From Iphinoe sp. HA4291-MV1 (GTDB lineage: Bacteria > Cyanobacteriota > Cyanobacteriia > Cyanobacteriales > Nostocaceae): a DNA stretch of 64,000 nt. The translations under genes were made by a program, and so were the position numbers. This document shows positions 4,100-21,906 of the stretch, in pieces. The first letter of the stretch is position 1; every line of letters begins with the position of its first letter. The notes beneath the pieces were generated by a model. It made no database searches, was not told the origin of the DNA, and saw nothing but the letters and a program-made list of their open reading frames with translations. Location of the stretch: positions 62,001-126,000 of the forward strand of contig JAHHHH010000006.1 of NCBI GenBank assembly GCA_019359415.1. Direction: 5' to 3'.

Positions 4100-4130
4100 C
4101 CTCAAAGCCTTAGTTGGCAATGCTTTGAGG
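4100..4130. repeat. CCTCAAAG hairpin family, copy 1
   Basis: CCTCAAAGC pairs with GCTTTGAGG around a short loop. The flank AATAATAAG is shared with the copies at 5681-5711 and 9560-9588. The other two copies lie directly downstream of minus-strand coding ends, so I read the family as intrinsic terminators or terminator-derived repeats. This copy now has no intact minus-strand gene just upstream of it. Confidence 0.6.
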
Positions 4131-4214
4131 CAAAAGTGATTAAATTCAGATCTTGTACCTAACCGTATAAATCCGGACTTGGTTAAAAGCAGCGCAATGA
4201 AGTTACATCACCGA

Positions 4215-4273
4215 AAGACGACGAGGAAGCCCATCCCTTCTAGGGGTGGGAAGAATCGTCGCCTCGTCGTCTT
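4215..4273. repeat. Nested inverted repeat resembling an IS200/IS605-type end
   Basis: Perfect 12-bp arms (AAGACGACGAGG and its complement) enclose a second hairpin, CCCATCCC-TTCTA-GGGGTGGG. The inner hairpin resembles the subterminal hairpins found at the right end of IS200/IS605 elements downstream of tnpB. No tnpA or tnpB is nearby, so at most this is a remnant. It could equally be a strong transcription terminator. Confidence 0.35.
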
Positions 4274-5004: not shown

Positions 5005-5487
5005 ATGCGAAAAACTTTTCAAGTTGCAATTGTATTAGTCTTGGCGCTGACTTTATTATCTGCAAATGTTTCTGCAGATCAGACAACAGATTTGCAAAAT
5101 ATAACCGCCCAAACAAGTGTTCCAAACAATTCTCAAAACAACTTTGATGCCAGAGAATTTGCAGATGGCTATTTCCAACTCTGGAATAATCAGGCTATAG
5201 ATAAAGCTGGTGATTATTACGCAAAAAAAGTTCATTATAGAGACCTTTCATTAGGTGTATCCCTTAAAGGTATCGAGGCAGTCAAGAAGTTTATGAAGGA
5301 GCAATTCGAGGGTACACCTGATCTGAAATTTAAAACTATAGATGTGGTGGTTCAAAGTCCAGAGAAAATAGCCATTCAGTGGTTGATGACAGGAACCGAT
5401 CAAGGTAAGCTGTCCCAGACGGAAGGTGTCTCCGTAATGGAGTTAAGGCAGGGGAAAATCATCAAAAACACAGACTATTACAAATAA
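5005..5487 (+). CDS. Secreted SnoaL-like (NTF2-fold) protein
   Basis: This 160-residue protein has a signal peptide (residues 1 to about 25, ending LLSANVSA) followed by a single SnoaL-like/ester-cyclase-type domain. The domain has the usual order of helices (AREFADGYFQLWNNQ), a YY..KVHYRDLS strand, KGIEAVKKFMKEQF, and a C-terminal sheet (EKIAIQWLMTGT, SVMELRQGKIIK). NTF2-fold proteins bind or isomerise small hydrophobic ligands, but many have no known activity, and the exact reaction cannot be read here. It is the only forward-strand gene in an otherwise minus-strand array. The neighbouring propeller protein (8130-9464) also ends in an NTF2-like domain. The start ATG follows an A-rich stretch with no clear Shine-Dalgarno. 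Confidence 0.75.
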   Translation: MRKTFQVAIVLVLALTLLSANVSADQTTDLQNITAQTSVPNNSQNNFDAREFADGYFQLWNNQAIDKAGDYYAKKVHYRDLSLGVSLKGIEAVKKFMKEQFEGTPDLKFKTIDVVVQSPEKIAIQWLMTGTDQGKLSQTEGVSVMELRQGKIIKNTDYYK

Positions 5488-5680
5488 ATGTGAAGGAAGC
5501 GATCGCTTGATTTCTTAAATGGCTGATTCTGATTCCGCGCTATATTAAACCTCTTGCAAAAGTGAGATTTTTTGAGGTTCTGTTCTCCTCTGTTCCCTGT
5601 TAAGAGTTTCCGACTTCTGCAAGAAGTCTATTGTGATTGCTCATAGGTAGCAATTTGGGTAGTGGTATACAGATAATAAG

Positions 5681-5711
5681 CCTCAAAACATTGCCCAACA
5701 ATGTTTTGAGG
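5681..5711 (-). terminator. CCTCAAAA hairpin, copy 2, downstream of the copper-radical oxidase gene
   Basis: A perfect 13-bp stem (CCTCAAAACATTG and its complement) with a 5-base loop lies 56 bases past the stop codon of the minus-strand gene ending at 5767. It is a member of the three-copy family also seen at 4100-4130 and 9560-9588. There is no clean T-run on either side, so terminator function is likely but not certain. Confidence 0.55.
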
Positions 5712-5766
5712 TTAAAGTTATCAAAAAAGTGTCAAAATTTCTCAAAATCTTTGTACGGCAAGAGAT

Positions 5767-7836
5767 TTATAAGTCACTGCTTTCTTTCGACACAACGAGC
5801 TGCACCATCTTGGCATGAGAAGGTTTTCCTTTATCGTTAACGTAAAACATCATGTAGTAACCCGGAGGACTCATATGTTTGTCCGTGGGTGCAGTGAAGG
5901 AAGCAAAGGAAAATGACTTTCCATTAAGCTCCTTTATGGTGCTTTGCTTAAATTTCAGATCAACTAGGCGCTGTCCGAAATCAAAACCATGAGTTGTCGA
6001 TCCGAGCTTGATCAAAACCAGAGATGACTTGTCGGTGGGATTGCTCACTGCGATCTTCTGTTCCGAACCGTAGGTTATTTGTTCGAGTGATTTAGTAATC
6101 TCTGGACGAGGTCCATCTATGAATAGATAGGGCGGGTTAAATATTTCGGGCTGCCAAGTTTCGGCAGAAAAGAAGTTCTGTCCCTTGTCAATTAAGTCAC
6201 CAGTGCCAGCCTTGATATCAAGACGAAGCTGCTTGGCTAGATCCACAGGCGGGTTTATCGGACCATTTCGATTATCCCAGGCTGCATAACCGCCCTGTCC
6301 GCCCAAAACCAAAACTCGGGCATCGGGCAAGAGTATAGCATTGTTATGGTAGAGTCTAGGTTCGGTACCTGGATTCATCCACTCAGTTTTATAGCCAACA
6401 GGTGCATTTTGATCCGGTGTCAGCAGGGTGGGATGATAGACAGGCATGTAAAATACGTAGTTGCCTCCACCAACAACCAAGATTTGTTTGCTAGGAAGAA
6501 TAACCGCGTGATGGGTAGTGCGGCGGGCGTAGGGACTTGTCCCAAGAAAATTCTCCTTGAGTTCCCACTGACCTTTTCCTCCCGACGCGGAAGCACGCCA
6601 ACGTTCAACAGAAGCAGTGGTTCTCACTCCTTCAATCGGCAGATCGGGACCGAAATTCGGATTGTTCATGCCTTCTAAGCCACCCATAAGCAAAATGTCT
6701 CCATTTGGAGAATTGGGATCGAGCAGGCTTGTAGTATAGTACTTAGACCATCCTTCTCTTTTCGCACCTGGCTCGAAGGAGACTGATAAACCATCCTTTG
6801 AGTCTTTGATGGATAGGAAGTAAGTGTTATGGGTTTTGCGTGGGGGGAGTTCGCGAGTCCCTCCCGAGTCACCTGTAATCAGGAAGCGACCATCTTTTGT
6901 CGGGTAGGTATGGGGATAGAGGGCGATGAAATCCGGTTCGCCATCTTCCTTGAGAGTTTTATAGGGACTATTAGGTAAGTCCTTAAGGTCTATTGATCGC
7001 CAAGCATCTTCCGGGGGCTTACTGGGATCGTAAACATCAAGTTGGGTGGAGACTTTTAGGTTATTTCCCCAGTCACTTCCAGACAAAACACTATTAAAGC
7101 TAATTCCAGAAAAAACGGCAATCTTGCCGTTGTCTAGGGGAAGTAAAGCCGGATACCAATGACCGTCAGCCATCTCCCCCGCTAAATCCCACTTATTGTT
7201 TTTCCAGTCATAGCGGTTTGCCTGTTTTGTTCCTAGAGGTGTAGGAGCTGGATAAGGAAACCAAGAGCCACTAACAACCAGAACATCTCCGTTGGGCAAG
7301 TGCAGATGACCTCCACAGAAAGGGTCATTGACTTGATCGTCATTGCTCCCTTTATATTTCACAGGTGTAGGGGGCGATTTGATTTTGGTAAAGGGGTTAG
7401 CATTATAGTCGATTGGGTTGATGGGATTTCCCTGATCATCAATAATTGGATCTGGATCGGAGAGGGTTGGATCGAATAGGGAAGTATTATCGAGCAACCA
7501 AGGTTTTCTTCCATCTTTACCTTCTATACCTTCGCCCTGTAGTGAAAGCCGAACAGAACCACCATTGACAATCAACAATTTGCCATTGGGTAAGAGTGCG
7601 ACGTGCAGACCCTGCATTCTCTCGTTGATATTCTTTGGCATTGGGGGCGTGTACCAAGCTCCCATTTTTTTGGCTGACCCCTCGACTGCTCGTAGAGGGG
7701 GTTCGCTCAGGTTGGCTGCGTAGGCATAGCTCAACCCAGGTATCGCATTATCCCAACCGCAGAGGGTGACAGTTATTGCTAGAAGAAAAGCGATAAAAAG
7801 CCTCAGTATCTTGTGAAGAAAGTTGTGTGGCACCAT
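5767..7836 (-). CDS. Exported copper-radical oxidase (galactose/glyoxal oxidase-like, kelch propeller plus DUF1929)
   Basis: This 689-residue protein has a signal peptide (residues 1 to about 41, LRLFIAFLLAITV then AYAYAA). A kelch-type beta-propeller (about 60-560) is built of LLPNGKLLIVNGG-like strands, and the C-terminal E-set domain is of DUF1929 type (about 575-685). The galactose oxidase active site can be traced: Cys174 (DPFCGGH) and Tyr228 (HWYPALLPL) for the Tyr-Cys cofactor, Tyr496-His497 (EPRLYHNN), and His616 (STTHGFDFGQR). Established: this family oxidises primary alcohols or aldehydes using O2 and releases H2O2. The substrate is unknown here. Neighbours on the same strand are propeller-module proteins and cytochrome-like proteins, all apparently outside the cytoplasm. 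A hairpin follows the gene. Confidence 0.88.
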   Translation of the reverse strand: MVPHNFLHKILRLFIAFLLAITVTLCGWDNAIPGLSYAYAANLSEPPLRAVEGSAKKMGAWYTPPMPKNINERMQGLHVALLPNGKLLIVNGGSVRLSLQGEGIEGKDGRKPWLLDNTSLFDPTLSDPDPIIDDQGNPINPIDYNANPFTKIKSPPTPVKYKGSNDDQVNDPFCGGHLHLPNGDVLVVSGSWFPYPAPTPLGTKQANRYDWKNNKWDLAGEMADGHWYPALLPLDNGKIAVFSGISFNSVLSGSDWGNNLKVSTQLDVYDPSKPPEDAWRSIDLKDLPNSPYKTLKEDGEPDFIALYPHTYPTKDGRFLITGDSGGTRELPPRKTHNTYFLSIKDSKDGLSVSFEPGAKREGWSKYYTTSLLDPNSPNGDILLMGGLEGMNNPNFGPDLPIEGVRTTASVERWRASASGGKGQWELKENFLGTSPYARRTTHHAVILPSKQILVVGGGNYVFYMPVYHPTLLTPDQNAPVGYKTEWMNPGTEPRLYHNNAILLPDARVLVLGGQGGYAAWDNRNGPINPPVDLAKQLRLDIKAGTGDLIDKGQNFFSAETWQPEIFNPPYLFIDGPRPEITKSLEQITYGSEQKIAVSNPTDKSSLVLIKLGSTTHGFDFGQRLVDLKFKQSTIKELNGKSFSFASFTAPTDKHMSPPGYYMMFYVNDKGKPSHAKMVQLVVSKESSDL

Positions 7837-8129
7837 AATACAAAACTTGATTTACAGTTAAATTGGGAGTTGGCGTTATTAGGAAATGCGGGCTGAAAAC
7901 CAATAGTAAATTTCTCAAAACCAAAAAGTTTTGAGATGAGAAAAACTTTTGCAGTTTTGGGCTGTAAAAACTGATCGTGGGTTTTTCTTAGGGGAAAGGA
8001 GCGATCGCTCCTTTCCCCATTAGACATCTCCAGAAATCAAGTTTTCGCTTTGAGCGGGCAAGAGTTTTAGATTCTTTTTCGGAGATATCAATTGAGAAAT
8101 TATGAAACTTTACTTGTTGTCTTTTGTCT

Positions 8130-9464
8130 CTACAGAGGTTTTGAATTCCAAATTTCGCGGGCAATCTTCCAGGTGCCTTGCTCTTTTCGCACCAACCATA
8201 CTATCCGAAGTTTAACTTCACTGGGTTCACTGTCGTCATCTTCCGGATAGAGCATGGCTGAAGACATACCGACAACATAACCGAAATTCTCGATTACTTG
8301 GATTTCTTCCGCAGTCAATTCTGGCTTGACACTCCTATTGCCGAACACCTCCTCAAACCCATCAGCGATTTCATCGGGTCCACGCCGATCGCGAGATTCT
8401 GGTGGCATCCAGAAAGCATCTTCAGTAAACATAGCGACATAAGCATCTACATCACCGGCTCTAACGTTCGACGCATATGTTTCTTCAAAGAGCTTTCTGA
8501 TCTCATCCTCATCACTCGCTACTGATCTGGATTTTAGCTGATCGTAAAAGATTAGGTCATCAGTGTCACGATCTCCACCAAATTCACCAGCAACAATCAA
8601 CTCCCAGGTTTTGCGCCATCCGGTGTGGCTGGACGCTGATGAGATCTCACCCCTACCATCAGTTCTACAAATTCTCACTTCTCCAATTGTTGGGTCATAA
8701 AACAACAGATCAGTGTAAGGATTTCCACCAAAGTTTCCTGGAATAATCGAGTGCCAAGTTTTGCTCCATCCAGTCTGCCTACTCAACTCTGAGAGATTCC
8801 CCCTACCATCAGTTGCATAAAATCGACCTTCCCCTGTTGTTGAATCGTACAACAGCAGGTCAGTGTAATAAGAATTTTCACTAAAGTTTCCTGGAATAAT
8901 CGAGTGCCAAGTTTTACGCCATCCAGTGTGCCTCCTCAACTCTGAGAGATTCCCCCTACCATCAGTAGTATAAAATTCAGCTTCTCCAGTTGTGGGGTCA
9001 TAGAACAGCAGGTCGGTGTAACTATTTCCACCAAAGTTTCCCGGAACAATCGAGTGCCAAGTTTTACGCCATCCAGTGTACTTCTTCAACAGTGAGATAT
9101 TGCCGTTATCACCAGTTGTATAAAATTCAGCTTCTCCAGTTGTAGGGTCATAGAACAGCAGGTCGGTGTAAGCATTTCCACCAAAGTTTCCCGGAATAAT
9201 CAACTCCCAGGTTTTGGGCCATCCGGTGTACTTCTTCAACACTGAGATTTTACCACTACTATCAGTCGTGTAAAATTCACCTTCTCCAGTTGCTGGATCA
9301 TAGAACAGCCGGTCGGTGTAAGTCTTTCCACCAAACTTTCCCGTAACAATCAACTTCCAGGTTTGGCGCCATCCCCAGTCCTGCTTGAACAGTGAGATAT
9401 TGCCGCTACCATCAGTTGCATAAAATTCGCCACAAATTTCGTCACTAGATGTCTGTTCACTCAT
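8130..9464 (-). CDS. Six-module propeller-like repeat protein with a C-terminal SnoaL/DUF4440-like domain
   Basis: In this 444-residue protein, residues 12 to about 315 are six modules of about 50 residues with the consensus GEFYTTDGxGNIS, HTGWRKTW, IVPGNFGGNxYTDLLFYD. This pattern fits one blade per module of a beta-propeller lectin-like or FG-GAP-like protein. From about residue 318 (DEDEIRKLFEETYASNVRAG) to the end is an NTF2-fold domain of DUF4440/SnoaL type (VDAYVAMFTEDAFWMPP, GTWKIAREIWNSKPL). The modules are very similar to those at 9958-12384. I see no signal peptide at the ATG start, although related domains nearby are exported. It may be the 3' part of a duplicated A-type gene that lost its front; the orphan fragment at 9599-9805 lies just upstream. 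The last two modules are the most diverged. Confidence 0.72.
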   Translation of the reverse strand: MSEQTSSDEICGEFYATDGSGNISLFKQDWGWRQTWKLIVTGKFGGKTYTDRLFYDPATGEGEFYTTDSSGKISVLKKYTGWPKTWELIIPGNFGGNAYTDLLFYDPTTGEAEFYTTGDNGNISLLKKYTGWRKTWHSIVPGNFGGNSYTDLLFYDPTTGEAEFYTTDGRGNLSELRRHTGWRKTWHSIIPGNFSENSYYTDLLLYDSTTGEGRFYATDGRGNLSELSRQTGWSKTWHSIIPGNFGGNPYTDLLFYDPTIGEVRICRTDGRGEISSASSHTGWRKTWELIVAGEFGGDRDTDDLIFYDQLKSRSVASDEDEIRKLFEETYASNVRAGDVDAYVAMFTEDAFWMPPESRDRRGPDEIADGFEEVFGNRSVKPELTAEEIQVIENFGYVVGMSSAMLYPEDDDSEPSEVKLRIVWLVRKEQGTWKIAREIWNSKPL

Positions 9465-9559
9465 TTTTTTACAGTTACTCGATTTTTAGAAAAGCTATGC
9501 AGTTCCCTACTTTAAAGTATGGGGAGCTACCTGAAACTTTTTACAATTGAATAATATGC

Positions 9560-9588
9560 CTCAAAGCATTGTTTGGTAATGCTTTGAG
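9560..9588 (-). repeat. CCTCAAAG hairpin family, copy 3
   Basis: CTCAAAGCATT pairs with AATGCTTTGAG around a 7-base loop, flanked by the family sequence TTGAATAAT. It lies 10 bases past the stop of the minus-strand fragment at 9599-9805 and before the start of the gene at 9464, as expected of a terminator between two minus-strand genes. Confidence 0.6.
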
Positions 9589-9598
9589 ACCAAAGTCA

Positions 9599-9805
9599 TC
9601 ATACACCAGAAGTTCCAGAAGGAATCACTTCTAACATTCCAAACCGTGCAGGACCTGCAGAACCGTCGGGATTTTTGAGGAGGAGCGATCGGTTTCCTAG
9701 TGGCGCATCCGCCATCGCTGTAAGGGTCAGGGTAAATATTTGAGAACCATCTTCTTCTCGAAAATCAATCTTTTTTGTGTTGAGTGCACTTCGCGCATTC
9801 AACAC
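9599..9805 (-). pseudogene. Orphan fragment of the linker domain of protein A
   Basis: Residues from about FREEDGSQIFTLTLTAM to GPARFGMLEVIPSGTSGV match residues about 460-508 of the protein at 9958-12384 almost exactly. There the domain sits between the N-terminal domain and the propeller modules. Here it has neither. Its apparent start lies in unrelated sequence containing a GTGTTGAATGCGCGAAGTGCACTCAACAC-type palindrome at about 9776-9806, and it stops where the module array should begin. I read it as debris of a third copy of gene A whose 5' part was deleted and whose repeats may survive as the gene at 8130-9464. Confidence 0.65.
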
Positions 9806-9814
9806 AAAATTGTT

Positions 9815-9940
9815 ATATCATGTCCAGATGAATATCTCTGGTTTTCTGTTGACGATCGCCCTTTGGGCGGCTCCTCCGGAGCATCGCTTGACTTTTAAGA
9901 CAGTCGCTACACTTGATAAGTAATTAATCGGACATGATAT
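9815..9940. mobile_element. MITE-like element with 11-bp perfect terminal repeats
   Basis: The 126-bp element is bounded by ATATCATGTCC and GGACATGATAT. Its interior holds a GC-rich cyanobacterial palindrome (GCCCTTTGGGCGGC followed by TCCTCCGGAG). It lies exactly between the prematurely ended propeller array of the gene at 9958-12384 and the orphan domain at 9599-9805, so insertion or recombination at this element may have created the break. It has no coding capacity. Confidence 0.6.
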
Positions 9941-9957
9941 CACTCTATGTTTTTGGA

Positions 9958-12384
9958 TTAGGTTGTCGAATCATAGAAGAGCAGGTCGGTGTAAGTATTT
10001 CCACCAAAGTTTCCCGGAACAATTGAGTGCCAGGTTTTGCGCCATCCAGTGTGGCTCAACACTGATGAGATCCTACCGCTACCATCAGTTGTACAAAATC
10101 TCCCTTCTCCAGTTGTTGGGTCATAGAATAGCAGGTCGGTATAATCATTTCCACCAAAGTCTCCCGGAACAATCAACTTCCAGGTTTTGAGCCATCCAGT
10201 GTGGCTCAACACTGATGAGATATTACCGCTACCATCAGTCGTACAAAATCTCCCTTCTCCAGTTGTGGAGTCATAGAAGAGCAGGTCGGTGTAAGTATTT
10301 CCACCAAAGTTTCCCGGAACAATCAACTTCCAGGTTTTGAGCCATCCAGTGTGTCTCCTCAACCCTGAGATATTGCCGTTACCATCAGTTGTATAAAATT
10401 CACCTTCTCCAGTTGTTGGGTCATAGAACAGCAGGTCAGTGTAAGAATTTCCACCAAAGTTTCCCGGAACAATCGAGTGCCAGGTTTTACGCCATCCAGT
10501 GTGCCTTTTCAACCCTGAGATATTGCCGTTACCATCAGTTGTATAAAATTCACCTTCTCCAGTTGTTGGGTCATAGAACAGCAGGTCGGTGTAAGCATTT
10601 CCACCAAAGTTCCCAGGAACAATCAACTTCCAGGTTTTGCGCCATCCGGTGTGCTTCTTCAACAGTGAGATATTGCCGTTACCATCAGTTGTATAAAATT
10701 CACCTTCTCCAGTTGTTGGGTCATAAAAGAGCAGGTCGATGTAAGTATTTCCACCAAAGTTTCCCGGAACAATCAACTTCCAGGTTTTGCGCCATCCGGT
10801 GTGCTTCTTTAACAGTGAGATATTGCCGCTACCATCAGTCGTATAAAATTCGCCATTAGATACGCCACCAGATACACCAGGAGTTTCAGAAGGAATCACT
10901 TCTAACATTCCAAACCGTGCAGGACCTGTAGAACCGTCGGGATTTTTGAGGAGGAGCGATCGGTTTCCTAGTGGCGCATTTGCCGCCGCAGTCAGGGTCA
11001 GGATAAAAATTTGGGAACCTTCTTCTTCTCGAAAGCCAGTCTTTTGCACGGTGATGCCAGGTGCATCCACAAACTCAATTGTGGCATTGCGATCGCTATT
11101 ACGAGCCTTGAGAGCAACATTCGCAATCGTCGTTCCTTGCTTGATTCTCATATTCAAGTTGGAACGCTCGCCGACTTGGAGCAACTCGGATTCCCGCAAG
11201 ACGGCAGGATAAGGCAAATTATTGCTGGCGACACGCCCATAAGACCGAGGGGGGGTCTGTTGGGGGATACCCTCACCGATGACCGCGATTTGAAGGGTTT
11301 CGGCGATTTGAGCGCCGTACTCAATGGGAAATCCACCAACCGAGATGTCGCTGACCGTAAAGCCATGTTCTGGTGGAACTTCGTAAACCGCATGAAGAAT
11401 CAAATCGTAAGCTTCTCCATCTTGGCGCTTGCGACCGCGAATCACTTTCCAGTAGTCGGACGGCTTGGCATCGTCAGGTGCGTCGAAGGGAAGCTCGTAG
11501 GTGCCGAAATTGGGTTCTTGTATATAAAGCCCTATAGGGTTTTTGAGAGTCACTCTCACGCCGGAACGCACTAAATCGTTAACCCTTGCACTAATAAAGG
11601 GATCGCTATTGCGGTTGGGGGTGGCATGCTGACCCCAGATAACGAGTTGGCTTGCATCGGTGATGGCATTTCCTTTGTCCTCTCGCAGGATCGTGGACTG
11701 CGCTCCTAAGAACATGGCACCATACTGGTAGTTGAAATTGCCAATCAGATGAGCTAAACCATTGGTTGGCTTATTATTCCACTCATTGAGTTCGTTGTAA
11801 GCCGGTCGTCCAGTCTGAGGATCGACAATCGGATTACCGCTAGTATCCCGCAGATACAAATCCTCTAGCTTGACTTGCTCGCTAATGAGTTGCTTGTAGA
11901 GACGCAACACGATATGAGGAGCGACATCCCAGAGGGCGTACCAGTACTCTCGGGTTTCGCTGGTGAATGAGACTTTCGTAATTTTCCCTTCAGCATTGCG
12001 GGTGACGCTCCACTCGGCATACTCATCCTGCCAACCTCGAGGACCTGGTGGGTAGTAGTCGGGATCTGGCACTCCATTATCGGCATATTCCCAATGCTTG
12101 AGCCGACCCGCCTCGGGCTTCTCGAACTTAATGCGGTTAGGATAAGCTGTCCAAGTGATGGGAACTGTTGGCGCTCCCTCGGGAACCTCGGTTGTTCGGG
12201 GATTGTAATAATCGGTGAGGGCTGGTTGATTGGTGAAATTCCAAGGCTCGTTTTGCAGCAGTCGTTCGGTCAAACGATTGACATCCTCGTTCCAGCGCGA
12301 TCGCAGCAGTTGTGCAAGTTGTTCTTCACCGGCTTGAAAGTCATTCTGAAACCCTGGCGGATCGAATTTAAAGTTGTTAGTCAT
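9958..12384 (-). CDS. Protein A2: unknown N-terminal domain plus six propeller-like modules, truncated
   Basis: This protein has about 808 residues from the ATG at 12384; a GTG at 12396 is the alternative, and neither has a clear Shine-Dalgarno. Residues 1 to about 440 are the unknown domain shared with the Tat-exported protein at 1-382. A short beta-rich linker follows (about 400-508, GSQIFILTLTAAANAPLGN). Six 50-residue modules (GEFYTTDGxGNIS, HTGWRKTW, GNFGGNxYTDLLFYDPTT) run to the stop. The last module ends at LLFYDSTT, short of a full unit, and an inverted-repeat element follows within 20 bases, so the array is probably truncated. Unlike its paralog it has no twin-arginine signal: the start falls just where the mature part of the paralog begins. 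The function is unknown. The gene is downstream of the second cytochrome-like gene, with one small gene between. Confidence 0.75.
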   Translation of the reverse strand: MTNNFKFDPPGFQNDFQAGEEQLAQLLRSRWNEDVNRLTERLLQNEPWNFTNQPALTDYYNPRTTEVPEGAPTVPITWTAYPNRIKFEKPEAGRLKHWEYADNGVPDPDYYPPGPRGWQDEYAEWSVTRNAEGKITKVSFTSETREYWYALWDVAPHIVLRLYKQLISEQVKLEDLYLRDTSGNPIVDPQTGRPAYNELNEWNNKPTNGLAHLIGNFNYQYGAMFLGAQSTILREDKGNAITDASQLVIWGQHATPNRNSDPFISARVNDLVRSGVRVTLKNPIGLYIQEPNFGTYELPFDAPDDAKPSDYWKVIRGRKRQDGEAYDLILHAVYEVPPEHGFTVSDISVGGFPIEYGAQIAETLQIAVIGEGIPQQTPPRSYGRVASNNLPYPAVLRESELLQVGERSNLNMRIKQGTTIANVALKARNSDRNATIEFVDAPGITVQKTGFREEEGSQIFILTLTAAANAPLGNRSLLLKNPDGSTGPARFGMLEVIPSETPGVSGGVSNGEFYTTDGSGNISLLKKHTGWRKTWKLIVPGNFGGNTYIDLLFYDPTTGEGEFYTTDGNGNISLLKKHTGWRKTWKLIVPGNFGGNAYTDLLFYDPTTGEGEFYTTDGNGNISGLKRHTGWRKTWHSIVPGNFGGNSYTDLLFYDPTTGEGEFYTTDGNGNISGLRRHTGWLKTWKLIVPGNFGGNTYTDLLFYDSTTGEGRFCTTDGSGNISSVLSHTGWLKTWKLIVPGDFGGNDYTDLLFYDPTTGEGRFCTTDGSGRISSVLSHTGWRKTWHSIVPGNFGGNTYTDLLFYDSTT
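10000..10850 (-). repeat. Six tandem 150-bp coding repeats (propeller modules)
   Basis: These are direct repeats with a 150-bp period inside the gene at 9958-12384, highly similar at the DNA level (for example CACCAAAGTTTCCCGGAACA and CATCAGTTGTATAAAATTC recur in each unit). A second array with the same period lies in the gene at 8130-9464. High DNA identity between units implies recent expansion or ongoing gene conversion. Units 1-4 and units 5-6 form two subgroups (GEFYTT against GRFCTT). Confidence 0.9.
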
Positions 12385-12396
12385 TTGCTTGTTCAC

Positions 12397-12835
12397 GCTT
12401 TTGTGTAGGAGTTTGGGAGTTCAGCAGCTAAACTCAATGGCTGCGTATCTCATTAATTCTCGAGATACAAAAGACTCGTTACATTTAGAAAAAATACTAT
12501 GCAGATTGTTTTGTAGGGGAGCGATCGCACTTACAGCAATTTTCTATTGGATAGAACACAGGTTGACTTTCCAAGACACAGCAATGCTGTGCCCTTACCA
12601 TCTCGTTTGTAGTCTATGCAATTGAGAAGCGCTGTAAGGCTAAAAGACTGATTAATGATGTGAAATTTGGGAGCTTCGACTCGTTGTCCAGTACCTCTGT
12701 AACCTCCTTACTGAACTAATGTCCCAACAAAGCACCGTTTACCTCTTGCAAAACTTCCGCTACACCCGCAAAGGTTAACGGTGGGAGGATGTCAATACGC
12801 GCTCATTACCGTAAAAAAAAACTCGTAGGAGTGTG
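12397..12835. other. 439-bp intergenic region
   Basis: I see no intact gene. On the minus strand, 12716 to about 12800 reads as an open C-terminal-looking fragment (LPPLTFAGVAEVLQEVNGAL) with no start codon, which may be the remains of a deleted gene. The region just before 12396 should hold the promoter of the propeller-protein gene, but I cannot identify boxes. Confidence 0.4.
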
Positions 12836-13204
12836 TCAAAGCTGAATTTTAATAGGCTCTTGCCCTTCCACAAAACTATACTCGATTTCTTTTGTGTTTA
12901 CCCGCATATAACTTTTTGCGGGAAATTGAGATTGCAATTCTTCAAGATTTAGCTCTTGCACAATCTTAGCAAGTAAACCTTTTGGTGAATCATCTACCTC
13001 TAACAAGACTTCTTCGTTGTCAATAATCTTGTTTAATTCATCGGATAACTGTTGCTCAAATGCGTTAATTTGTGGATCGTTTAAAAGTTGAAGATCTTGA
13101 TTGCGTAGCATTTTGTCCAAATGCGTGTCGCCAGTCTGATATTCTGGTGCTTGTCTTAACGCATTTGCCCAAATTTTCGCTGCTGTTGTTGCTGCAATTC
13201 TCAT
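12836..13204 (-). CDS. Hypothetical 122-residue protein
   Basis: I do not recognise the family. The protein is soluble with no signal peptide or membrane segment. It begins with a helical MRIAATTAAKIWANALRQAP, continues with an acidic central part (INAFEQQLSDELNKIIDNEE), and ends with a strand-like KEIEYSFVEGQEPIKIQL. The ATG start and consistent codon use suggest a real gene. It sits between the second cytochrome-like gene and the propeller gene on the same strand, a position empty in the other copy of the module, so it was probably inserted or is independent. Confidence 0.55.
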   Translation of the reverse strand: MRIAATTAAKIWANALRQAPEYQTGDTHLDKMLRNQDLQLLNDPQINAFEQQLSDELNKIIDNEEVLLEVDDSPKGLLAKIVQELNLEELQSQFPAKSYMRVNTKEIEYSFVEGQEPIKIQL

Positions 13205-13556
13205 TGTTTTTTGTTTTGTTTTTAATAATCATTGTAGCTAACTTGTAGGTATTGAGTTTTGCATTGCTCGATTTCTACCTACAAGCTCAAGCGATTGGCT
13301 TTGCCACTGCCCCTTGGGCAATCGCTTTAGAATCCCTAGAATACCGATTCAGCATTCACAGTTTTGACAAAAAACCAGGTTTCTTTGGGTCACAACAAGG
13401 AAATTTTGGTTTGAAAGGACATAGAAATTGAGTTTTTCAGTCTCACCTTTTATGACTAAATCGGTGTTCTAGCGATCAAGCTATGTCAAACAGAATTCAA
13501 TCAGTTGCACTTAAGAATGCTGCTTTTCTCATAACACCGGGTTATGGAAGCTCACA
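13205..13556. other. 352-bp intergenic region with a palindromic repeat
   Basis: No gene is seen. A dispersed hairpin lies at 13289-13327 (AAGCGATTG and CAATCGCTT arms around GCCCCTTGGGC). Relatives occur near 49326-49368 and inside the element at 9815-9940. A CAGGTTTCTTTGGG-type short repeat common in cyanobacteria lies near 13375. Confidence 0.45.
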
Positions 13557-15341
13557 CTAATTGCTAGCGGTGGGTTTCGGACAGGACGGCAGTTCGGATA
13601 GGTCGTTTTCCGGAAACAGCAGTCTAGACTCGTAAAACTCGCATAGAGCGGGGGTTGAGGCAAAGCGATCGCGCTGCTCGATGCTCCATCGCATCACGTA
13701 ATCCAAGCGTTCGGTTGGTTCAAGATTTTCCACCGACTTCACATAGGCTTTCAGTCGGTCTGCTGTTACCTGCTTCCATTGATCATTGGGCAACTCCCAG
13801 GTATAGAGAAACTGCTCTTCTGGTGAGGAAGCGTCAAAATCTTCAGGATTGGAAGGTGCTTTGAACCCCTTCTCCTTAATCTTGGCAGCAAAGTCTGTGG
13901 GAACGCTGCTGACTCCATTAACGATCTTGCCGGTCGTTATTCCCTTGGCGTATTTTTGAAGAGAAGCGCGTTTTTCAGAAAACAACGGGTTTTTGTAGTC
14001 CACCATCAATAGAGCGGCGACGAATCTGTCTGTCACAACCTTCGATTGCAACAATTTTTGCGTCACGTAAATGTCTTCCGCTGCTACCTGCGGTAAGTAG
14101 AGGGCAAAATAGGTCGATCCTGGAGACTCATATGCTTTCTCGCTATCGCGCGTGAACCCTTTCGTGCCAACCAATTTGAAGTCATGTTCCTTGAGAAAGG
14201 CATCATAGTCCTTCCGAGGCAATTTCACCGAAAGAGGCGAGTAGTCCAACTTCAAGGTTGTCTGCAAAAGCGTGTCCGACAAGAAAGTGTCGTTGGGAGG
14301 AACGCCAGCAATATCAGAGTCTGGCGGACTTGTATTTTGTCCTGCGCTCTGAACGTCACTGGACTTAAAGTTGACGGTGGTATTGGTGGTCAAGTAGCGC
14401 AACATTTGATCGACATCACTGACATTGATAGTGCTGCCTTCCTTACGGATGCGCTGTCGCAACCAATTGCTGTAGTAGCCTTGAAAGTTGCTTCTGATGA
14501 CCTGTTCAAGGATCTCAGCACCACGCCGTGACAAAAAGAAAGCTTCGCTGGCGACTTCCTTTGGAAGGAACTGTGCGGAAATATTGGCTCGCTGAGACTG
14601 CCAATTACTCCAAGGAAGCTCTATCTCCCTCATAACTGGAACGCCGTTATGATGACAGCGAAAACAACCTTGTCCTATCGTTTGGGGTTGTTGTGCTTGA
14701 GAAGTATGACCCGTCCAAGCCCAAACCATAGGATTCTTATCACTAGCTTCAAAGTCGGGTACTTGCGGTCTGAGGAAATAGTAGTTGTATTCTTTGGTTT
14801 GGTCGTCAAAAGACAGAACCTCAATCAACCCTAGAGTCTTAGTCTCAGGAATGGCAGGGGAAAGCTTCGCCATCATAATTTTGCTCTCGTTTTCATTCGC
14901 TCCCCAAGTTATGGTATAGCGAAGACCGCGAGGCAGATCCCTTGCAGCAACAGTTGTGGGGATTTGTGCTCCTTCCCCGACAAAGTAAGTCGTTGGACCA
15001 TAGCCCCATTTGTCCGCGATCGCCTGATTGATGGTTTGGGTGTCATCCGGGAGAGGCTTCTGCTGCGTCAAAAGACCCTGCAGAGTCTTGGCAAAGGGAT
15101 CGGTAAGCTTCTCAATTTCAGAGTCGCTCAGGGGCGTAAGGCATTTGTCCAACCCCTCAATGTGGCGGTAAATTTTGTCTTTAACTACGGGAGGGCAGCT
15201 GATTGATTCTTCTAGTGGCGCACTGCTAGCTTCCATTGAGGCGAACCAAGTTCCGCCTAAGACCGAAAGTAGGGTGAGAAAAACCACTATACTTAGCGTT
15301 GCAATAGTCGATTTTACAAATCTTAAAGATTTTGCAAGCAT
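13557..15341 (-). CDS. Exported single-CxxCH cytochrome-like protein (module protein B2)
   Basis: This is a full-length paralog of the gene at 763-2526, about 594 residues from the ATG chosen at 15341. An upstream TTG at 15356 would place GAGGAG inside the gene, whereas from 15341 the GAGGAG lies 7 bases ahead, exactly as in the paralog. The N-terminal hydrophobic segment (TIATLSIVVFLTLLSVLGG) suggests export. The heme motif CFRCH is in the context GQGCFRCHHNG, followed by REIELPWSNWQSQRAN. The 5' leader with AGAGCTTGATTTTTTCGCTC is also shared with the paralog, so the duplication included the regulatory region. The heme iron's second ligand and the protein's partner are unknown. It is the first gene of the second B-A module. 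Confidence 0.8.
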   Translation of the reverse strand: MLAKSLRFVKSTIATLSIVVFLTLLSVLGGTWFASMEASSAPLEESISCPPVVKDKIYRHIEGLDKCLTPLSDSEIEKLTDPFAKTLQGLLTQQKPLPDDTQTINQAIADKWGYGPTTYFVGEGAQIPTTVAARDLPRGLRYTITWGANENESKIMMAKLSPAIPETKTLGLIEVLSFDDQTKEYNYYFLRPQVPDFEASDKNPMVWAWTGHTSQAQQPQTIGQGCFRCHHNGVPVMREIELPWSNWQSQRANISAQFLPKEVASEAFFLSRRGAEILEQVIRSNFQGYYSNWLRQRIRKEGSTINVSDVDQMLRYLTTNTTVNFKSSDVQSAGQNTSPPDSDIAGVPPNDTFLSDTLLQTTLKLDYSPLSVKLPRKDYDAFLKEHDFKLVGTKGFTRDSEKAYESPGSTYFALYLPQVAAEDIYVTQKLLQSKVVTDRFVAALLMVDYKNPLFSEKRASLQKYAKGITTGKIVNGVSSVPTDFAAKIKEKGFKAPSNPEDFDASSPEEQFLYTWELPNDQWKQVTADRLKAYVKSVENLEPTERLDYVMRWSIEQRDRFASTPALCEFYESRLLFPENDLSELPSCPKPTASN

Positions 15342-15476
15342 TATGATTCTCCTCAATCTTGCTATAGCTTGCTATAGAGCTTGATTTTTTCGCTCTCACT
15401 CACAGATAGCGAACATATCGAGCGTATAGTAGATAGCTAACATACTTGAGCCTACCGCAAAAGAGTGATTATAAGA

Positions 15477-16649
15477 TCAAAAATATGATTGAAGTTTTCC
15501 CCTTCTTCTCACATCTAGCGTTGCACAATGAAAAGAACCACCAAAGATATTAAAGTTGCGAAAATTACAAGTAATTGGCTGAAATCCCCAATCTTTTAGA
15601 AGTCTAATCATTGCTTCGTCTTGCTTTTCAACGATGACTCTTTTTTCATCGAGTGTCAAAAGATTCATACCGACTCCCTTAGAGCTCATATAGAGAGGAT
15701 GACTGTCAGGAATACAGAATTCAGAAACTTTTAGCACATCCCAACTTTTAAACATTTCTGGAACTTTTTCCACTTTTTCTGGATGTATTAAGAGTTTACC
15801 AGGAGCAAGAAGCACAAACGTTGCATCAATGTGCATGGCTGATTGATCCTTAAACTTGAGTTCATGGATTCTGTACTCATTTCCCAAACATCTCCGTACC
15901 CACTCTATGCCAAAACGATTGGTAACATGACTTTGTTGCACGAAGATATCTCTACCACATTTGGTAAACTCTGCCGCATCAAATACTGGTTCAAATTCAG
16001 TCAGTGAAGAGTTGAATTCTTGATCCTTATCTGCCTCTTCATATTGATAGTTGTATAGTTCATCACACAGTTGTGGTTTGGGTGCTGGAATCCATTGAGC
16101 GCCCTGATGAAAATACTCTTTGATCAGTGAACGATAGGCATTAATTTCAAAGTATCTAGAGCGCCAAGGCATTGGAGCTTCGATCAGTTTATCTCCAATG
16201 ACCATCATGACATCTCTTGGCATTGCTCCGTAGAGACCACTTGGACTTTCCCAGTCTGGGGTTGCATAAGGACGAGTATAATTTATAGCATCAGGACGAC
16301 GAACTGTTACACCTTCTGATTCCAAAATGTGAACGAGTTCTTGCAGATCTTTTTCTCCAGCTTGTACTTGCTCTTCTGGGAATAGTTGTCCACCTTTGCT
16401 CCGAAAAAAATCCCAATAACGCCTAGGCATTGTTGCTTTAACTGTTACATGCCAAGGTGGTACTACTGCACCATCCAATCGACCAACAATCACTTCCTCT
16501 AGAGGGTCCCATTCATTGAATGAGTTGACAACAGGTGTTGCTGGTTCTGTTAATTGCGAGCGCGTGGTTGGGACAGAGGTAGTCATTTGTGCGAAGTTGA
16601 CAACAGGTATTGCTGGTTCTGTTAATTGCGAACTATGATTCTGCTCCAT
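15477..16649 (-). CDS. Amidinotransferase of the arginine:glycine amidinotransferase family
   Basis: This 390-residue enzyme moves an amidino group from arginine to an amine acceptor. The catalytic triad of the family is visible: Asp234 (CGRDIFVQQS), His273 (SAMHIDATFVLL) and Cys375 (GGSFHCATLDVRR), along with the N-terminal WDPLEEVIVGR. Known cyanobacterial relatives include CyrA (guanidinoacetate, cylindrospermopsin) and SxtG (saxitoxin). The acceptor here is not readable. Glycine, lysine or a product of the neighbouring lysine-halogenase-like enzyme are all possible. The family core starts near residue 41; before it lies a duplicated 12-residue block (SQLTEPAxPVVN), so ATG 16649 may be followed by a dispensable tail, or Met22 could be the start. 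It is divergent from the exporter/methyltransferase/halogenase genes. No PKS or NRPS gene is nearby, so this is not a cylindrospermopsin or saxitoxin cluster. Confidence 0.88.
   Translation of the reverse strand: MEQNHSSQLTEPAIPVVNFAQMTTSVPTTRSQLTEPATPVVNSFNEWDPLEEVIVGRLDGAVVPPWHVTVKATMPRRYWDFFRSKGGQLFPEEQVQAGEKDLQELVHILESEGVTVRRPDAINYTRPYATPDWESPSGLYGAMPRDVMMVIGDKLIEAPMPWRSRYFEINAYRSLIKEYFHQGAQWIPAPKPQLCDELYNYQYEEADKDQEFNSSLTEFEPVFDAAEFTKCGRDIFVQQSHVTNRFGIEWVRRCLGNEYRIHELKFKDQSAMHIDATFVLLAPGKLLIHPEKVEKVPEMFKSWDVLKVSEFCIPDSHPLYMSSKGVGMNLLTLDEKRVIVEKQDEAMIRLLKDWGFQPITCNFRNFNIFGGSFHCATLDVRRRGKLQSYF
16524..16631 (-). repeat. 36-bp direct repeat in the amidinotransferase 5' end
   Basis: Two 36-base copies (16524-16559 and 16596-16631) differ at one base, are in frame and are 72 bases apart. 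They encode SQLTEPAxPVVN twice and lie outside the conserved catalytic core. Confidence 0.85.
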
Positions 16650-17496: not shown

Positions 17497-18486
17497 ATGA
17501 CTAATGTCCTTGATAATTCACAAGAGAAAGTAGAATCACAAGAGAAAGTAGAATCACAAGAGAAAGTAGAATTCACTCCAGTCATTCTGGATTTGCTTTT
17601 GTTATTGATAGCAGTATTGCTCGTATCTTTGGATCCAATCTTTACGAGATTGAGTGAAAACGAGCTTGGATTTAATGCAACAGTTTTCAATCGTGAATTA
17701 ATAGCCAGTGTAGTCTTCCTATTTTGGCAGGGAATAAAAGTAATATTGGACAGCCATAAGAGCGATTTGTCATCGCCAAAAGAGTCAAAGCCAATTACTA
17801 TTAGCACTTTAGCTATTCTATTAGCCGTGGTTATTTTTGGAGAAGTGTGCTTAGTTACTTGGGCTTTATCTTTGACTCAAACCAGTGTTGCCAATTCTAA
17901 TCTACTCCATAACTTACCCTCAGTTTTTGCTGTTCTTGGAGGATGGCTATTTTTAGGTCAACGCTTTGATAGAAAGTTTCTCATAGGGATGACTGTTGCT
18001 TTAGGTGGCGCGATCGCCATTGGAATTGAAGATTTACAAATTTCTCCCGAAAACCTTGTAGGCGATGGCTGGGCTTTATTCTCTGCTGTCGTCTATGCAG
18101 GTTACTTTTTGACTATAGAAAAACTCCGATCTCAATTTTCAGCACTGACCATATCACTGTGGTATTGTATCCTTTCAAGTCTCCTCCTTCTCCCAGTTGT
18201 ACTCTTTTTTGAAAATCAAGTTTTTCCAACTTCACTGTTGGGATGGGTAAATGTCATTTGTCTAAGTATTCTTTGCCAAGTGATTGCTTCTGTAATTTTT
18301 ATCTATCAACTCAAAAATTTTTCTTCAGCTTTTGTTTCTCTGTTCATGTTACTACAACCAATTATTACGGCTGTGCTTGCCTGGTTCATCTTTCAAGAAA
18401 AGTTGAATTTGCTCAACTGGATAGGTTTTTTGATTGTTTTATTGGGCATTTACCTCGCTCAAACTGGTGAAGGTGTCAAACATTAA
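17497..18486 (+). CDS. EamA/DMT-family transporter
   Basis: This 329-residue membrane protein has about ten hydrophobic helices in two halves, the EamA duplication (for example LLLLIAVLLVSLDPIFTRLS, LAILLAVVIFGEVCLVTWAL, FLIVLLGIYLAQTGEG). Members of the drug/metabolite transporter superfamily export amino acids, metabolites or toxins, or take up sugars. In this context I infer efflux of the product of the neighbouring amino-acid-modifying enzymes. The N-terminus carries three identical 18-base repeats (SQEKVE three times) before the first helix. A plausible in-frame alternative start is not evident, so the ATG at 17497 is kept. It is followed 151 bases later by the methyltransferase gene on the same strand. 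Confidence 0.85.
   Translation: MTNVLDNSQEKVESQEKVESQEKVEFTPVILDLLLLLIAVLLVSLDPIFTRLSENELGFNATVFNRELIASVVFLFWQGIKVILDSHKSDLSSPKESKPITISTLAILLAVVIFGEVCLVTWALSLTQTSVANSNLLHNLPSVFAVLGGWLFLGQRFDRKFLIGMTVALGGAIAIGIEDLQISPENLVGDGWALFSAVVYAGYFLTIEKLRSQFSALTISLWYCILSSLLLLPVVLFFENQVFPTSLLGWVNVICLSILCQVIASVIFIYQLKNFSSAFVSLFMLLQPIITAVLAWFIFQEKLNLLNWIGFLIVLLGIYLAQTGEGVKH
17518..17571 (+). repeat. Three exact 18-bp tandem repeats in the transporter 5' end
   Basis: TCACAAGAGAAAGTAGAA occurs three times in a row in frame, encoding SQEKVE each time. Copy number could vary between strains by slippage without breaking the frame. Confidence 0.95.
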
Positions 18487-18637: not shown

Positions 18638-19528
18638 ATGGAACCGGAAATATCTATTTCTTCCGAGGATTTTAAGAATAAAGCAGATACAGGACTGATA
18701 ATGTCCAGCACGCGATGGCTTATCGATCACTATAAAGCTAAAGAAAAGTACCGCCACCAAATGGTTGAAGATTTAGATTTAAAACCTGGCGATATTGTGT
18801 TAGATGTAGGTTCAGGTCCAGGTTTATGGTCAAATCGTTTAGCTGAAAAAGTAGCTCCAAATGGTCGTGTTATAGGCATTGATTATTCTATTGATGCCCT
18901 TAGTTATGCCCAAAAGAATTTAGAGAACTATCCTTATAAAGATATAATAGAATACTCGCAAGCTGATTTTTTTAATATTCCCTACCCTGATGAAACATTT
19001 GATTTTGTTTTTTGCAGTAATAGTCTGATGTACTTCCCCGATTCGATGAAAGAAAAACTCTTGAAAGAACAAAAGCGGATTGTCAAAAAAGGCGGAAGAA
19101 TTGCGTCTAAAGAATATGATGGAGAAACAATCATTCTTTACCCAATTCCTCCAGAATTGTGGTTGAAACTTAAAAATGCTGTAGCTCAAGTTCTATCAGA
19201 GAGACCATTAGAAGAATATTATGATGAGTATGTCGCTCGTAAGGTACGTAAATCATTCTTAGATGCTGGATTAAAAGATGTTGTAACCATACCTTATCCT
19301 ATTCAAATGTTTTCACCTTTATCATCCCATCAAAAAAACTACATTACTGAAGAGAGTCAGTGGTTTATAAAAACGGCTTTTCCTTACTTGAGTAAATCAG
19401 AAGTATCTCAACTTGAATCTTTTTTCGATTCCAATTCAAGTCAATACATTCTAGATAGAGAAGATTTTTCTTATTTAGTAGTCGAATTTATGTCAATTGG
19501 AACTAAGACTTCTAGTTCTTCAGTATAA
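18638..19528 (+). CDS. Class I SAM-dependent methyltransferase
   Basis: In this 296-residue protein, the Rossmann-fold SAM site is clear: VLDVGSGPGLWSNRLAE (motif I, about residues 50-66), VIGIDYSIDALSYA (acidic loop), QADFFNIPYPDETFDFVFCS (motifs II/III). The N-terminal helix and the extended C-terminal part after residue 190 probably bind the substrate. The substrate is unknown. In this cluster an N-methylation of an amino-acid or guanidino compound is a reasonable but unproven inference; an amidinotransferase plus a methyltransferase is also how creatine is made. A stub of a duplicate of this gene lies at 17336-17425. Confidence 0.82.
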   Translation: MEPEISISSEDFKNKADTGLIMSSTRWLIDHYKAKEKYRHQMVEDLDLKPGDIVLDVGSGPGLWSNRLAEKVAPNGRVIGIDYSIDALSYAQKNLENYPYKDIIEYSQADFFNIPYPDETFDFVFCSNSLMYFPDSMKEKLLKEQKRIVKKGGRIASKEYDGETIILYPIPPELWLKLKNAVAQVLSERPLEEYYDEYVARKVRKSFLDAGLKDVVTIPYPIQMFSPLSSHQKNYITEESQWFIKTAFPYLSKSEVSQLESFFDSNSSQYILDREDFSYLVVEFMSIGTKTSSSSV

Positions 19529-20128: not shown

Positions 20129-20902
20129 ATGACACAAGTCGCAATAATCAACAACTTGGAACAGCAGATCCAAGACAATATTCATGGTAATTTTTCTCAG
20201 GAATCTTTACCCTTGATCCATCAAAAGTTTAAGCGAGAGGGATTTATCAAAGTTCCTGAAATTATGCCTCTCAACATTCGCCAACAGATGAAACAAGAGG
20301 CTCTGAGGCTTTTAGAACTATACGCCGAGCGGCGCGATCTGAAGCTGGCAACTACAGGAAATACTCCCAGGAAAATGAGTGTAGTGACCAGTGAAACCAT
20401 TGCCGCTAACAGCGAGTTTATTAACTCTATATATAGATCAAAATCACTGCTAGACTTTCTCTTAAAACTTGCTGGAGAACCTTTCTTACCTTGTCCATCA
20501 AAGGACGAGGAATTTTTGATTACTAGACATGAAAAGAGTGGCGACACCCACGGATGGCACTGGGGAGATTATCGTTTTGCTCTAATTTGGATTCTGGAAA
20601 CCCCACCCCTTGAATATGGTGGTATGTTGCAATGTGTTCCTCATACCGTTTGGGACAAGTCTCATCCCAGGATTCATGAGTACCTGTGTGAGAATCTTAT
20701 CCGTACCTATGGCTTTGTTAGTGGTGACATTTACTTGTTAAAAGCAGATACAACTCTTCATCGCACAGTACCCCTGAATCGTGATGCTACTCGCATTATG
20801 ATCAACATGACTTGGGGATGCCTTGATGACGAGAAAAGGAATCTCAATGGTAATGATCGTTGGTGGGCAGAAAAGGAAGTAGAAGCGGGTATCTATAGCT
20901 AA
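20129..20902 (+). CDS. BesD-like Fe(II)/2-oxoglutarate amino-acid radical halogenase (predicted)
   Basis: This 257-residue cupin-fold enzyme is superficially of the phytanoyl-CoA dioxygenase type. The iron site reads H144-W-G146-D147 with distal His211. Gly replaces the usual Asp/Glu ligand, which is the mark of radical halogenases where chloride fills the site. Compared with BesD (lysine 4-chlorinase), every key residue I remember matches at a +7 offset: R74/R81, E120/E127, H134/H141, H137/H144, G139/G146, D140/D147, H204/H211, N219/N226, T221/T228, W239/W246. Arg222 is placed to bind 2-oxoglutarate. I therefore predict chlorination of free lysine or a close analogue; hydroxylation or another basic amino acid remains possible. 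The next gene is a BesC-like oxidase. The ATG has only a weak Shine-Dalgarno. Confidence 0.85.
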   Translation: MTQVAIINNLEQQIQDNIHGNFSQESLPLIHQKFKREGFIKVPEIMPLNIRQQMKQEALRLLELYAERRDLKLATTGNTPRKMSVVTSETIAANSEFINSIYRSKSLLDFLLKLAGEPFLPCPSKDEEFLITRHEKSGDTHGWHWGDYRFALIWILETPPLEYGGMLQCVPHTVWDKSHPRIHEYLCENLIRTYGFVSGDIYLLKADTTLHRTVPLNRDATRIMINMTWGCLDDEKRNLNGNDRWWAEKEVEAGIYS

Positions 20903-21144: not shown

Positions 21145-21906
21145 ATGACAGCTTTAGAAGTTCAAAAGTTTGAGGAAATACAAGAGCCTAATGTTCGTCA
21201 ACGGTTGGAGGTCAATGACCAAGAAATCAAAAATTATCTCAATGAGAAGATGGAGTATATTCTCAATCACCGAGCAGTAGAGCATCCTCTTCTCAACTAC
21301 TACCGAAAAAACAAGTTTACCAAGGAACAAGAAAAGAAATTTTATCTAGAGTGCTGGTATTATTTCCAATACGAGCCATTCTATATCACATCTATGGCAG
21401 TGAATACTCGTGATTATAATATTTTGCGGGAAGTGGTACTCAATGTGGTTGATGAAGTCGGAGGTAAGGTAACCCATGAGACGCTTTTCCGCGAGCAAAT
21501 TAATGAGCTTGGGGTTAGCAATGAAGAAATTGACAATTACAAGTGTTTGCCCACAACCACAGCCATCAATGAAGGAGCAATGAAGCTTTATGGTGAACCC
21601 CCAATTGAAAAAGCCTTGGGGGCATTGTATGCTGATGAGACTATGTCCGCCGTGCTGGCAACTCAGCTTAATGATGGGTTACAGAACCAAGGCTATGACA
21701 AGAATGTTAGAAAGCATTGGTTGATGCACCTGAATGTGGAAATTGGACATAGCAACAATGCGTTTAATGCGATCGCACCTTATGTTATCCATCCGCAGGG
21801 ACGGGAATTATTTGAGGCAGGCATAAATAAATACTTGGAACTGCTAGAAGCCTATTGGGATGGAGTTGATTCAATTGTCAGAGGAGAAAAAGTTGCTACA
21901 AATTAG
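21145..21906 (+). CDS. Heme-oxygenase-like diiron oxidase, BesC-like (predicted)
   Basis: This 253-residue all-helical protein of the heme-oxygenase-like diiron (HDO) superfamily carries six candidate iron ligands with the family spacing: Glu104-x6-His111 (DEVGGKVTH), Glu165 (YADETMS), and His195-x3-Glu199-x2-His202 (HLNVEIGH). BesC uses such a site to cleave 4-chlorolysine to 4-chloroallylglycine, releasing formaldehyde and ammonia. The halogenase-like gene 242 bases upstream makes the same role likely here, though relatives also decarboxylate fatty acids (UndA) or N-hydroxylate. The start is well supported: AAAGGAG lies 9 bases before the ATG. A hairpin with a T-run follows, so this looks like the last gene of the transcript. 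No BesB-like PLP enzyme is in the window. Confidence 0.85.
   Translation: MTALEVQKFEEIQEPNVRQRLEVNDQEIKNYLNEKMEYILNHRAVEHPLLNYYRKNKFTKEQEKKFYLECWYYFQYEPFYITSMAVNTRDYNILREVVLNVVDEVGGKVTHETLFREQINELGVSNEEIDNYKCLPTTTAINEGAMKLYGEPPIEKALGALYADETMSAVLATQLNDGLQNQGYDKNVRKHWLMHLNVEIGHSNNAFNAIAPYVIHPQGRELFEAGINKYLELLEAYWDGVDSIVRGEKVATN

Follow-up and report, generated by a model that had tools for sequence, protein, structure and literature searches.

The window, by which the whole analysed stretch of 64,000 nucleotides is meant, carries a gene, Hal, whose product is predicted to be a BesD-type lysine halogenase and very probably chlorinates free lysine. It lies next to a gene coding for a relative of the diiron oxidase BesC, and the gene set to which both belong suggests that the product is a chlorinated amino acid not described before: judging from sequence, the cassette would correspond to the bes pathway of S. 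cattleya in a form that retains the chlorine, with an exporter and a step proposed to form a guanidine. The features discussed are the following:

15477..16649, minus strand: predicted L-arginine amidinotransferase, AGAT-like (390 aa; flap D268-Q-S-A-M272, H273, C375)
17497..18486, plus strand: predicted EamA/DMT-type exporter (329 aa; PF00892), divergent from the amidinotransferase gene
18638..19528, plus strand: predicted class I SAM-dependent methyltransferase (296 aa; profile matches), a variable partner
20129..20902, plus strand: Hal, predicted BesD-type Fe(II)/2OG lysine halogenase (257 aa, ATG start; homology, residues, fold model)
21145..21906, plus strand: predicted BesC-like haem-oxygenase-like diiron oxidase (253 aa; PDB 7twa, six ligands)
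L003 (G000:C34:28000-47999), 11246-12832: second Hal+BesC pair, a second copy in the same genome

In a phmmer search of the PDB the best match of Hal was BesD (6nie, E 3.8e-87), followed by the lysine halogenase 9oer (1.7e-79), HalB (5.8e-71), the lysine hydroxylase 7jsd (1.3e-69) and HalD (3.1e-58), and residues 19-253 of Hal align with residues 15-249 of 6nie without a gap. The original prediction had seen a phytanoyl-CoA dioxygenase-like fold; Pfam places Hal in the HalD family PF23169, with 304 bits against a gathering cut-off of 26, and not with the phytanoyl-CoA dioxygenases. This score, the phmmer value and dN/dS of 0.11-0.16 in three comparisons with relatives, indicating purifying selection, uphold the view expressed at the same time that the resemblance to BesD goes beyond chance. 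On the NCBIfam BesD equivalog model NF042920 Hal reaches 333 bits and stays below the curated cut-off of 450, which is a tight one, S. cattleya BesD itself scoring 470 bits; Hal is a family relative and is not filed as an NCBIfam BesD equivalog.

The active-site residues were compared in a MAFFT alignment of 57 rows, with BesD taken from the S. cattleya megaplasmid locus L062, where its identity is confirmed by the NCBIfam score just given. H144-W145-G146-D147 and H211 stand where the original prediction had put them, and the ten residues it had named as shared with BesD (R81, E127, H141, H144, G146, D147, H211, N226, T228 and W246) are all the same in the S. cattleya enzyme, with Gly146 falling at the iron-carboxylate position, so that the HxD triad shows the Gly/Ala-for-Asp/Glu replacement. 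A paper on BesD lists R77, E123, H137, D143, D239 and W241 as its lysine contacts (PMC13244439), and with the offset of 4 taken from the ungapped 6nie alignment their equivalents R81, E127, H141, D147, D243 and W245 are all present in Hal. The tryptophan originally assigned to lysine binding, W246, does match BesD, but the contact given in that paper corresponds to W245; Hal has both. In the PDB alignment the lid reads NDRWW in Hal and HalA and DDRWW in BesD.

An AlphaFold2 model of Hal, built with 26 aligned relatives as input, has a mean pLDDT of 88.5, the C-terminal lid being of low confidence (pLDDT about 52-71). When the model was submitted to Foldseek, 6nie was found at rank 1 (TM 0.87/0.92, 55% identity), HalB and HalA came next, and the lysine hydroxylase 7jsd (45% identity to Hal) followed at rank 31. 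The predicted fold agrees with the solved BesD-type fold, which the hydroxylases share.

The nearest non-halogenase structures, 7jsd and 9oet, are lysine hydroxylases, and Hal could in practice be one itself; the iron-site residue argues against this reading. Gly is expected in the 53 Hal loci collected here, since these were found partly with the peptide HGWHWGDY, and it is not independent evidence in that set. A motif-free search of 218 genomes of the same family gave 14 Hal places in 13 genomes, six of them close (78-100% identity) and eight distant (29-39%). Gly occupies the iron site in all six close copies, as opposed to Asp in each of the six readable homologues among the eight distant ones (judged from the motif by eye; the six do not include L070 and L072), and Asp is also present in L061 from a phylum-wide sample. 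A hydroxylase is thus highly improbable. The sequence, the predicted fold, the Gly-for-Asp iron site, the lysine contacts, the DRWW lid and the tree described below all argue for Hal being a BesD-like lysine halogenase, as had been predicted.

The adjacent gene at 21145-21906, absent from the original prediction, has BesC (7twa, 4-chloro-allylglycine synthase) as its best match in the PDB (E 1.1e-80), the second best being at 2.7e-11. On the NCBIfam BesC equivalog model NF042919 it scores 315 bits and its second copy in the genome 350, neither reaching the cut-off of 500, which is again tight (551 bits for S. cattleya BesC). The predicted diiron ligands E104, H111, E165, H195, E199 and H202 are invariant in all 18 aligned BesC relatives and fit the HDO metal motif E-H-X-H-D/E-H as given in PMC11363339, and dN/dS of 0.10-0.12 (two comparisons) indicates purifying selection. 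A BesC relative adjoins Hal in nine out of nine cyanobacterial loci with Hal of at least 73% identity, the window and the second copy counted. In the stretches examined it is present in 15 of the 53 Hal loci, namely seven cyanobacterial ones (Hal at least 73%), one gammaproteobacterial MAG, two from Marinobacter and five from Pseudomonas; it was not found in the other three cyanobacterial loci of the 53, L027, L033 and L053, where Hal is 37-50% identical and the L033 stretch ends near the gene. Five of the 218 family genomes have BesC, and these are exactly the ones with close Hal.

The adjacent BesC homologue supports lysine C4 as the target of Hal. With the lid modelled at low confidence, the choice between C4 and C5 is made on the letters, and we infer C4 from the clade, the lid letters and the BesC partner. 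Hal may also be a halogenase with a different target, such as lysine C5 in the manner of HalB, ornithine in the manner of HalD or some other basic amino acid, with the BesC relative taking that product. HalD-type enzymes from Pseudomonas (L041, almost identical to PDB 7u6h) also adjoin BesC relatives, so the BesC neighbour alone does not fix the substrate. However, Hal has the DRWW lid found in BesD and HalA, which HalB and HalD lack in their printed sequences, and in the tree Hal belongs to the BesD clade, which is separate from the HalD-type clade; a different target is therefore improbable, though less so than hydroxylation.

Several loci outside the cyanobacteria were read alongside. The BesC relative adjoins the halogenase in the Pseudomonas (HalD-type) and Marinobacter loci L041, L044, L045, L047, L048, L031 and L032. 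In L031 it is followed by genes annotated as RarD-like EamA and aspartate-semialdehyde dehydrogenase-like, relatives of which occupy the same place in L041 and L048. The gammaproteobacterial Hal-BesC run of L014 (8001-12630) comprises a fatty-acid-hydroxylase-like gene, a gene for a LysE exporter and one for a glutathione-dependent formaldehyde-activating enzyme, the last being in keeping with formaldehyde release by BesC.

The second Hal+BesC pair of the genome, located on contig C34, shows 79% (Hal) and 63% (BesC) identity to the pair in the window. A more distant EamA gene (51%), a GNAT gene and an M20 peptidase gene lie near it. A GCS2 ligase gene beside this pair was considered as coding for a gamma-glutamyl ligase that would stand in for BesA, and was rejected; it is the sole match in the genome and most likely codes for the housekeeping glutamate-cysteine ligase.

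The original prediction regarded a cyanobacterial member of the family as noteworthy, and such members turned out to be real but rare: four of the 386 genomes sampled phylum-wide match at E 1e-20, and only two of these four have Hal with at least 78% identity, both of the Gly type. Close Hal is present in two of eight genomes of the same genus. The Hal tree was built from 54 rows, including two identical pairs, after omission of seven partial or divergent rows. All nine cyanobacterial rows with at least 73% identity fall into one clade (96/99), in which five families are represented going by the NCBI names and which is nested in a BesD clade of 27 rows (100/98), and the window Hal is nearest to that of Brasilonema UFV-L1 and then to that of Kamptonema. 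Several long branches are flagged, and the branching order inside the BesD clade is tentative. The BesC neighbour corresponds to two changes on this tree, one in the BesD clade and one in the HalD-type clade. The patchy presence of Hal together with the order in the tree suggests its horizontal transfer.

The BesD clade also includes Gly-type halogenases from six Legionella species (L019, L021, L022, L024, L025, L035), within about 8 kb of which a BesC relative was not found. More distant Gly-type cyanobacterial homologues of Hal accompanied by an EamA gene are found in L053 from Symploca (7526-10884) and in L027 (3171-5069), the former also with a methyltransferase gene nearby.

The dechlorinating part of the bes pathway was sought with the S. 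cattleya proteins. The besB and besA genes of L062 were confirmed by NCBIfam (949 vs 800 and 879 vs 750 bits, respectively), and the label besE is presumably the right one for a gene of this locus. BesB, which NCBIfam describes as a dechlorinase/desaturase of 2-amino-4-chloropent-4-enoate, gave no match at E 0.001 in the genome carrying the window (95% complete), and among the 64 stretches examined it matched only in its source L062, the query itself being the sole positive control; the negatives are weak ones, and the gene by which a bes alkyne pathway would be recognized was not found. With no BesB match, it is unlikely that the S. cattleya alkyne route operates here, and the product probably retains its chlorine. 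A full S. cattleya-like alkyne pathway would call for BesB to be replaced by an unrelated enzyme and for a BesA relative of the ATP-grasp type elsewhere, and there is indeed a BesA-like ATP-grasp gene on the contig of Hal (C138:46955-48346, or L080 4829-6439; 32% identity, E 9.7e-44). That gene, however, lies about 34 kb from Hal, some 14 kb ahead of the window, and in Pfam it matches IQCH-like ATP-grasp and PGM1_C; BesA had no match in any of the 53 Hal loci. Such a complete pathway is very improbable, being hardly better placed than the hydroxylase reading.

The retention of chlorine is therefore the preferred reading, and the first three steps may be pictured as follows. In step 1, H144 and H211 of Hal would hold Fe(II) and Gly146 would give chloride room, as the residues and the fold imply; O2 and 2-oxoglutarate would yield a chloro-ferryl species, which takes a hydrogen from C4 of free L-lysine and returns chlorine, giving 4-chloro-L-lysine. 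In step 2, going by homology and ligands, the BesC-like oxidase would use O2 to convert 4-chlorolysine to 4-chloro-L-allylglycine, formaldehyde and ammonia. In step 3 the chlorine would probably be retained, as the search found no BesB relative, whereas in S. cattleya it is lost on the way to the alkyne. This sequence-based course from lysine through 4-chlorolysine to 4-chloroallylglycine with its chlorine is rather likely as a whole.

The product of the gene at 15477-16649 matches human AGAT in the PDB (1jdx, E 5.7e-121, aligned over 353 aa) and also HsvA and SxtG; no Pfam or NCBIfam model matched it at the limits used. H273 and C375 align with human AGAT, as in an AGAT-type enzyme, and we take them to be the catalytic His and the catalytic Cys, respectively, set in the arginine-site framework of AGAT-type amidinotransferases. 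The dN/dS value (0.14, one comparison) indicates purifying selection. The 300-flap is DQSAM in all subtype members read; the flaps given in PMC4887976 are DPNPM for human AGAT, DMHPM for AmtA and DIFPS for CyrA. According to the same paper, AmtA used only lysine and ornithine among the acceptors tested, makes homoarginine from lysine and needs the flap methionine for acceptor use, and the methionine kept in the window protein would allow a lysine-like acceptor.

Relatives of the amidinotransferase are present at E 1e-60 in 34 of the 218 family genomes. The subtype with at least 80% identity is confined to five of them, the same five that have Hal+BesC, and is absent from all the 213 genomes without this pair, the next best match being at 57%; the number of independent events is smaller than five, given that G072 and G429 are near-identical strains at the locus and two genomes belong to one genus. 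Kamptonema (the L007 genome) has the amidinotransferase at 84% and Oscillatoria (the L012 genome) at 80%, so that with these two and a MAG added the subtype occurs in seven of the eight cyanobacterial genomes with Hal+BesC. Neither the L011 MAG (3.0 Mb) nor the gammaproteobacterial genome of L014 gave a match to it. Another cyanobacterium has, in L106 (G533:C1190, 381-2386), a distant Hal homologue (33%) adjoining an amidinotransferase gene (48%).

The arrangement of the genes varies. In the window the amidinotransferase gene is on the opposite strand to Hal and about 3.5 kb off, so the two do not form one operon; in L012 the order Hal-BesC-methyltransferase-amidinotransferase is found on a single strand, and in Kamptonema the amidinotransferase gene is located about 11 kb from Hal, beside another gene set, both genes being on a single contig as its length and the genes in common show. 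All five family genomes with Hal+BesC have the amidinotransferase and EamA genes as a divergent pair (window, L009, L010, L104, L105), which in G407 and G418 is on a different contig from Hal, and an EamA relative is also present in Kamptonema. The methyltransferase gene accompanies Hal+BesC in the window and in L007, L008 and L012; a search at E 1e-60, in which up to 10 candidates per genome were scored, did not find it in G407, G072 or G429.

The amidinotransferase, the methyltransferase and the exporter might be mere bystanders, and the pathway would then end with exported 4-chloroallylglycine. All eight proteobacterial Hal+BesC stretches are without the amidinotransferase, as is the whole genome of L014; exporter genes stand beside proteobacterial Hal+BesC where these loci were read (RarD in L031, LysE in L014); next to the amidinotransferase gene the window and Kamptonema both have an unrelated set of oxidase genes; and the genomes are small in number and in part closely related. 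Against this, the subtype accompanies Hal+BesC in five of five family genomes and in none of the other 213, in varied arrangements, and L012 has all four genes on one strand. The bystander reading is rather unlikely in our view, although better placed than any of the other alternatives.

If the amidinotransferase does take part, it would in step 4 transfer the amidino group of arginine to a pathway amine, a step deduced from co-occurrence and put forward tentatively. The acceptor could be the alpha-amine of chloroallylglycine, a branched amine being amidinated by SxtG, or else the amine on the side chain of lysine or chlorolysine. In step 5 the EamA protein would export the product, and the methyltransferase may be an optional tailoring enzyme. 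The three-enzyme route as a whole, in which lysine, chloride and arginine would end up in a chlorinated guanidino amino acid for export by the EamA protein, is a shade more speculative still than the amidination itself. The candidate products are 2-guanidino-4-chloropent-4-enoate and 4-chlorohomoarginine, the latter of which could cyclise to a cyclic guanidine with displacement of chloride. Close to Hal in L007, L008 and L074 there is a gene of the arginase family, which was considered as a guanidine hydrolase gene; it scores as agmatinase (186-188 bits vs the cut-off of 174) and was given no special role.

The upstream part of the window (763-15356) contains a gene set with a galactose-oxidase-like gene (5767-7836), a SnoaL gene and genes for two related proteins of 587 and 599 aa, the latter with a CxxCH motif, and for a protein of 812 aa. 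Parts of the set recur in Brasilonema UFV-L1 and in Kamptonema, close to Hal or to the amidinotransferase gene (L006, L007/L113, L105, L080), and some of it is repeated immediately upstream of the window. PDB searches with two of its proteins, those of 548 aa and 599 aa, gave no match.

If the proposed reading is true, free-lysine halogenation and diiron C-C cleavage are extended to cyanobacteria and a chlorinated amino acid retaining its halogen is predicted; the amidinotransferase association leads to a definite, testable product prediction in strains with public genomes. The halogenase family is already known, and what is new is the cassette in which BesB was not found and an amidinotransferase is co-inherited. 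A literature search did not find BesC, an amidinotransferase and a halogenase together, although prior mention in print is possible. In the available text of a survey of cyanobacterial halogenases the non-haem iron queries were CurA, BarB1, HctB, WelO5 and AmbO5, with no mention of BesD (PMC8406957), and the BesD-type class may for that reason have been overlooked in cyanobacteria.

Among the known systems Hal is closest to BesD, the L-lysine 4-chlorinase of S. cattleya (6nie), with 53-55% identity, the ten shared residues, the iron-site Gly and an adjoining BesC gene, but it is cyanobacterial and scores below the BesD equivalog cut-off; a BesB was not found, and its surroundings contain no BesA. 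HalA (9oer), another lysine halogenase, shares about 50% identity and the DRWW lid with Hal, the comparison being by protein alone. HalB and HalD (7u6i and 7u6h) belong to the same family and have the same fold, and HalD-type loci also have BesC relatives, but Hal is only 41-43% identical to HalB and 38% to HalD, and the lid sequence differs. The neighbouring oxidase resembles BesC (7twa) in its PDB match and its E-H-E-H-E-H ligands, but with 315 bits falls short of the 500 set for the equivalog. The amidinotransferase keeps the flap methionine of AGAT and AmtA, while its flap as a whole, DQSAM, differs from those of AGAT, AmtA and CyrA. The S. cattleya bes cluster (L062) likewise has a halogenase-BesC pair with an EamA gene (PF00892) in the locus; the cyanobacterial sets differ from it in that no BesB was found in them and in that they carry the amidinotransferase gene with a divergent EamA gene.
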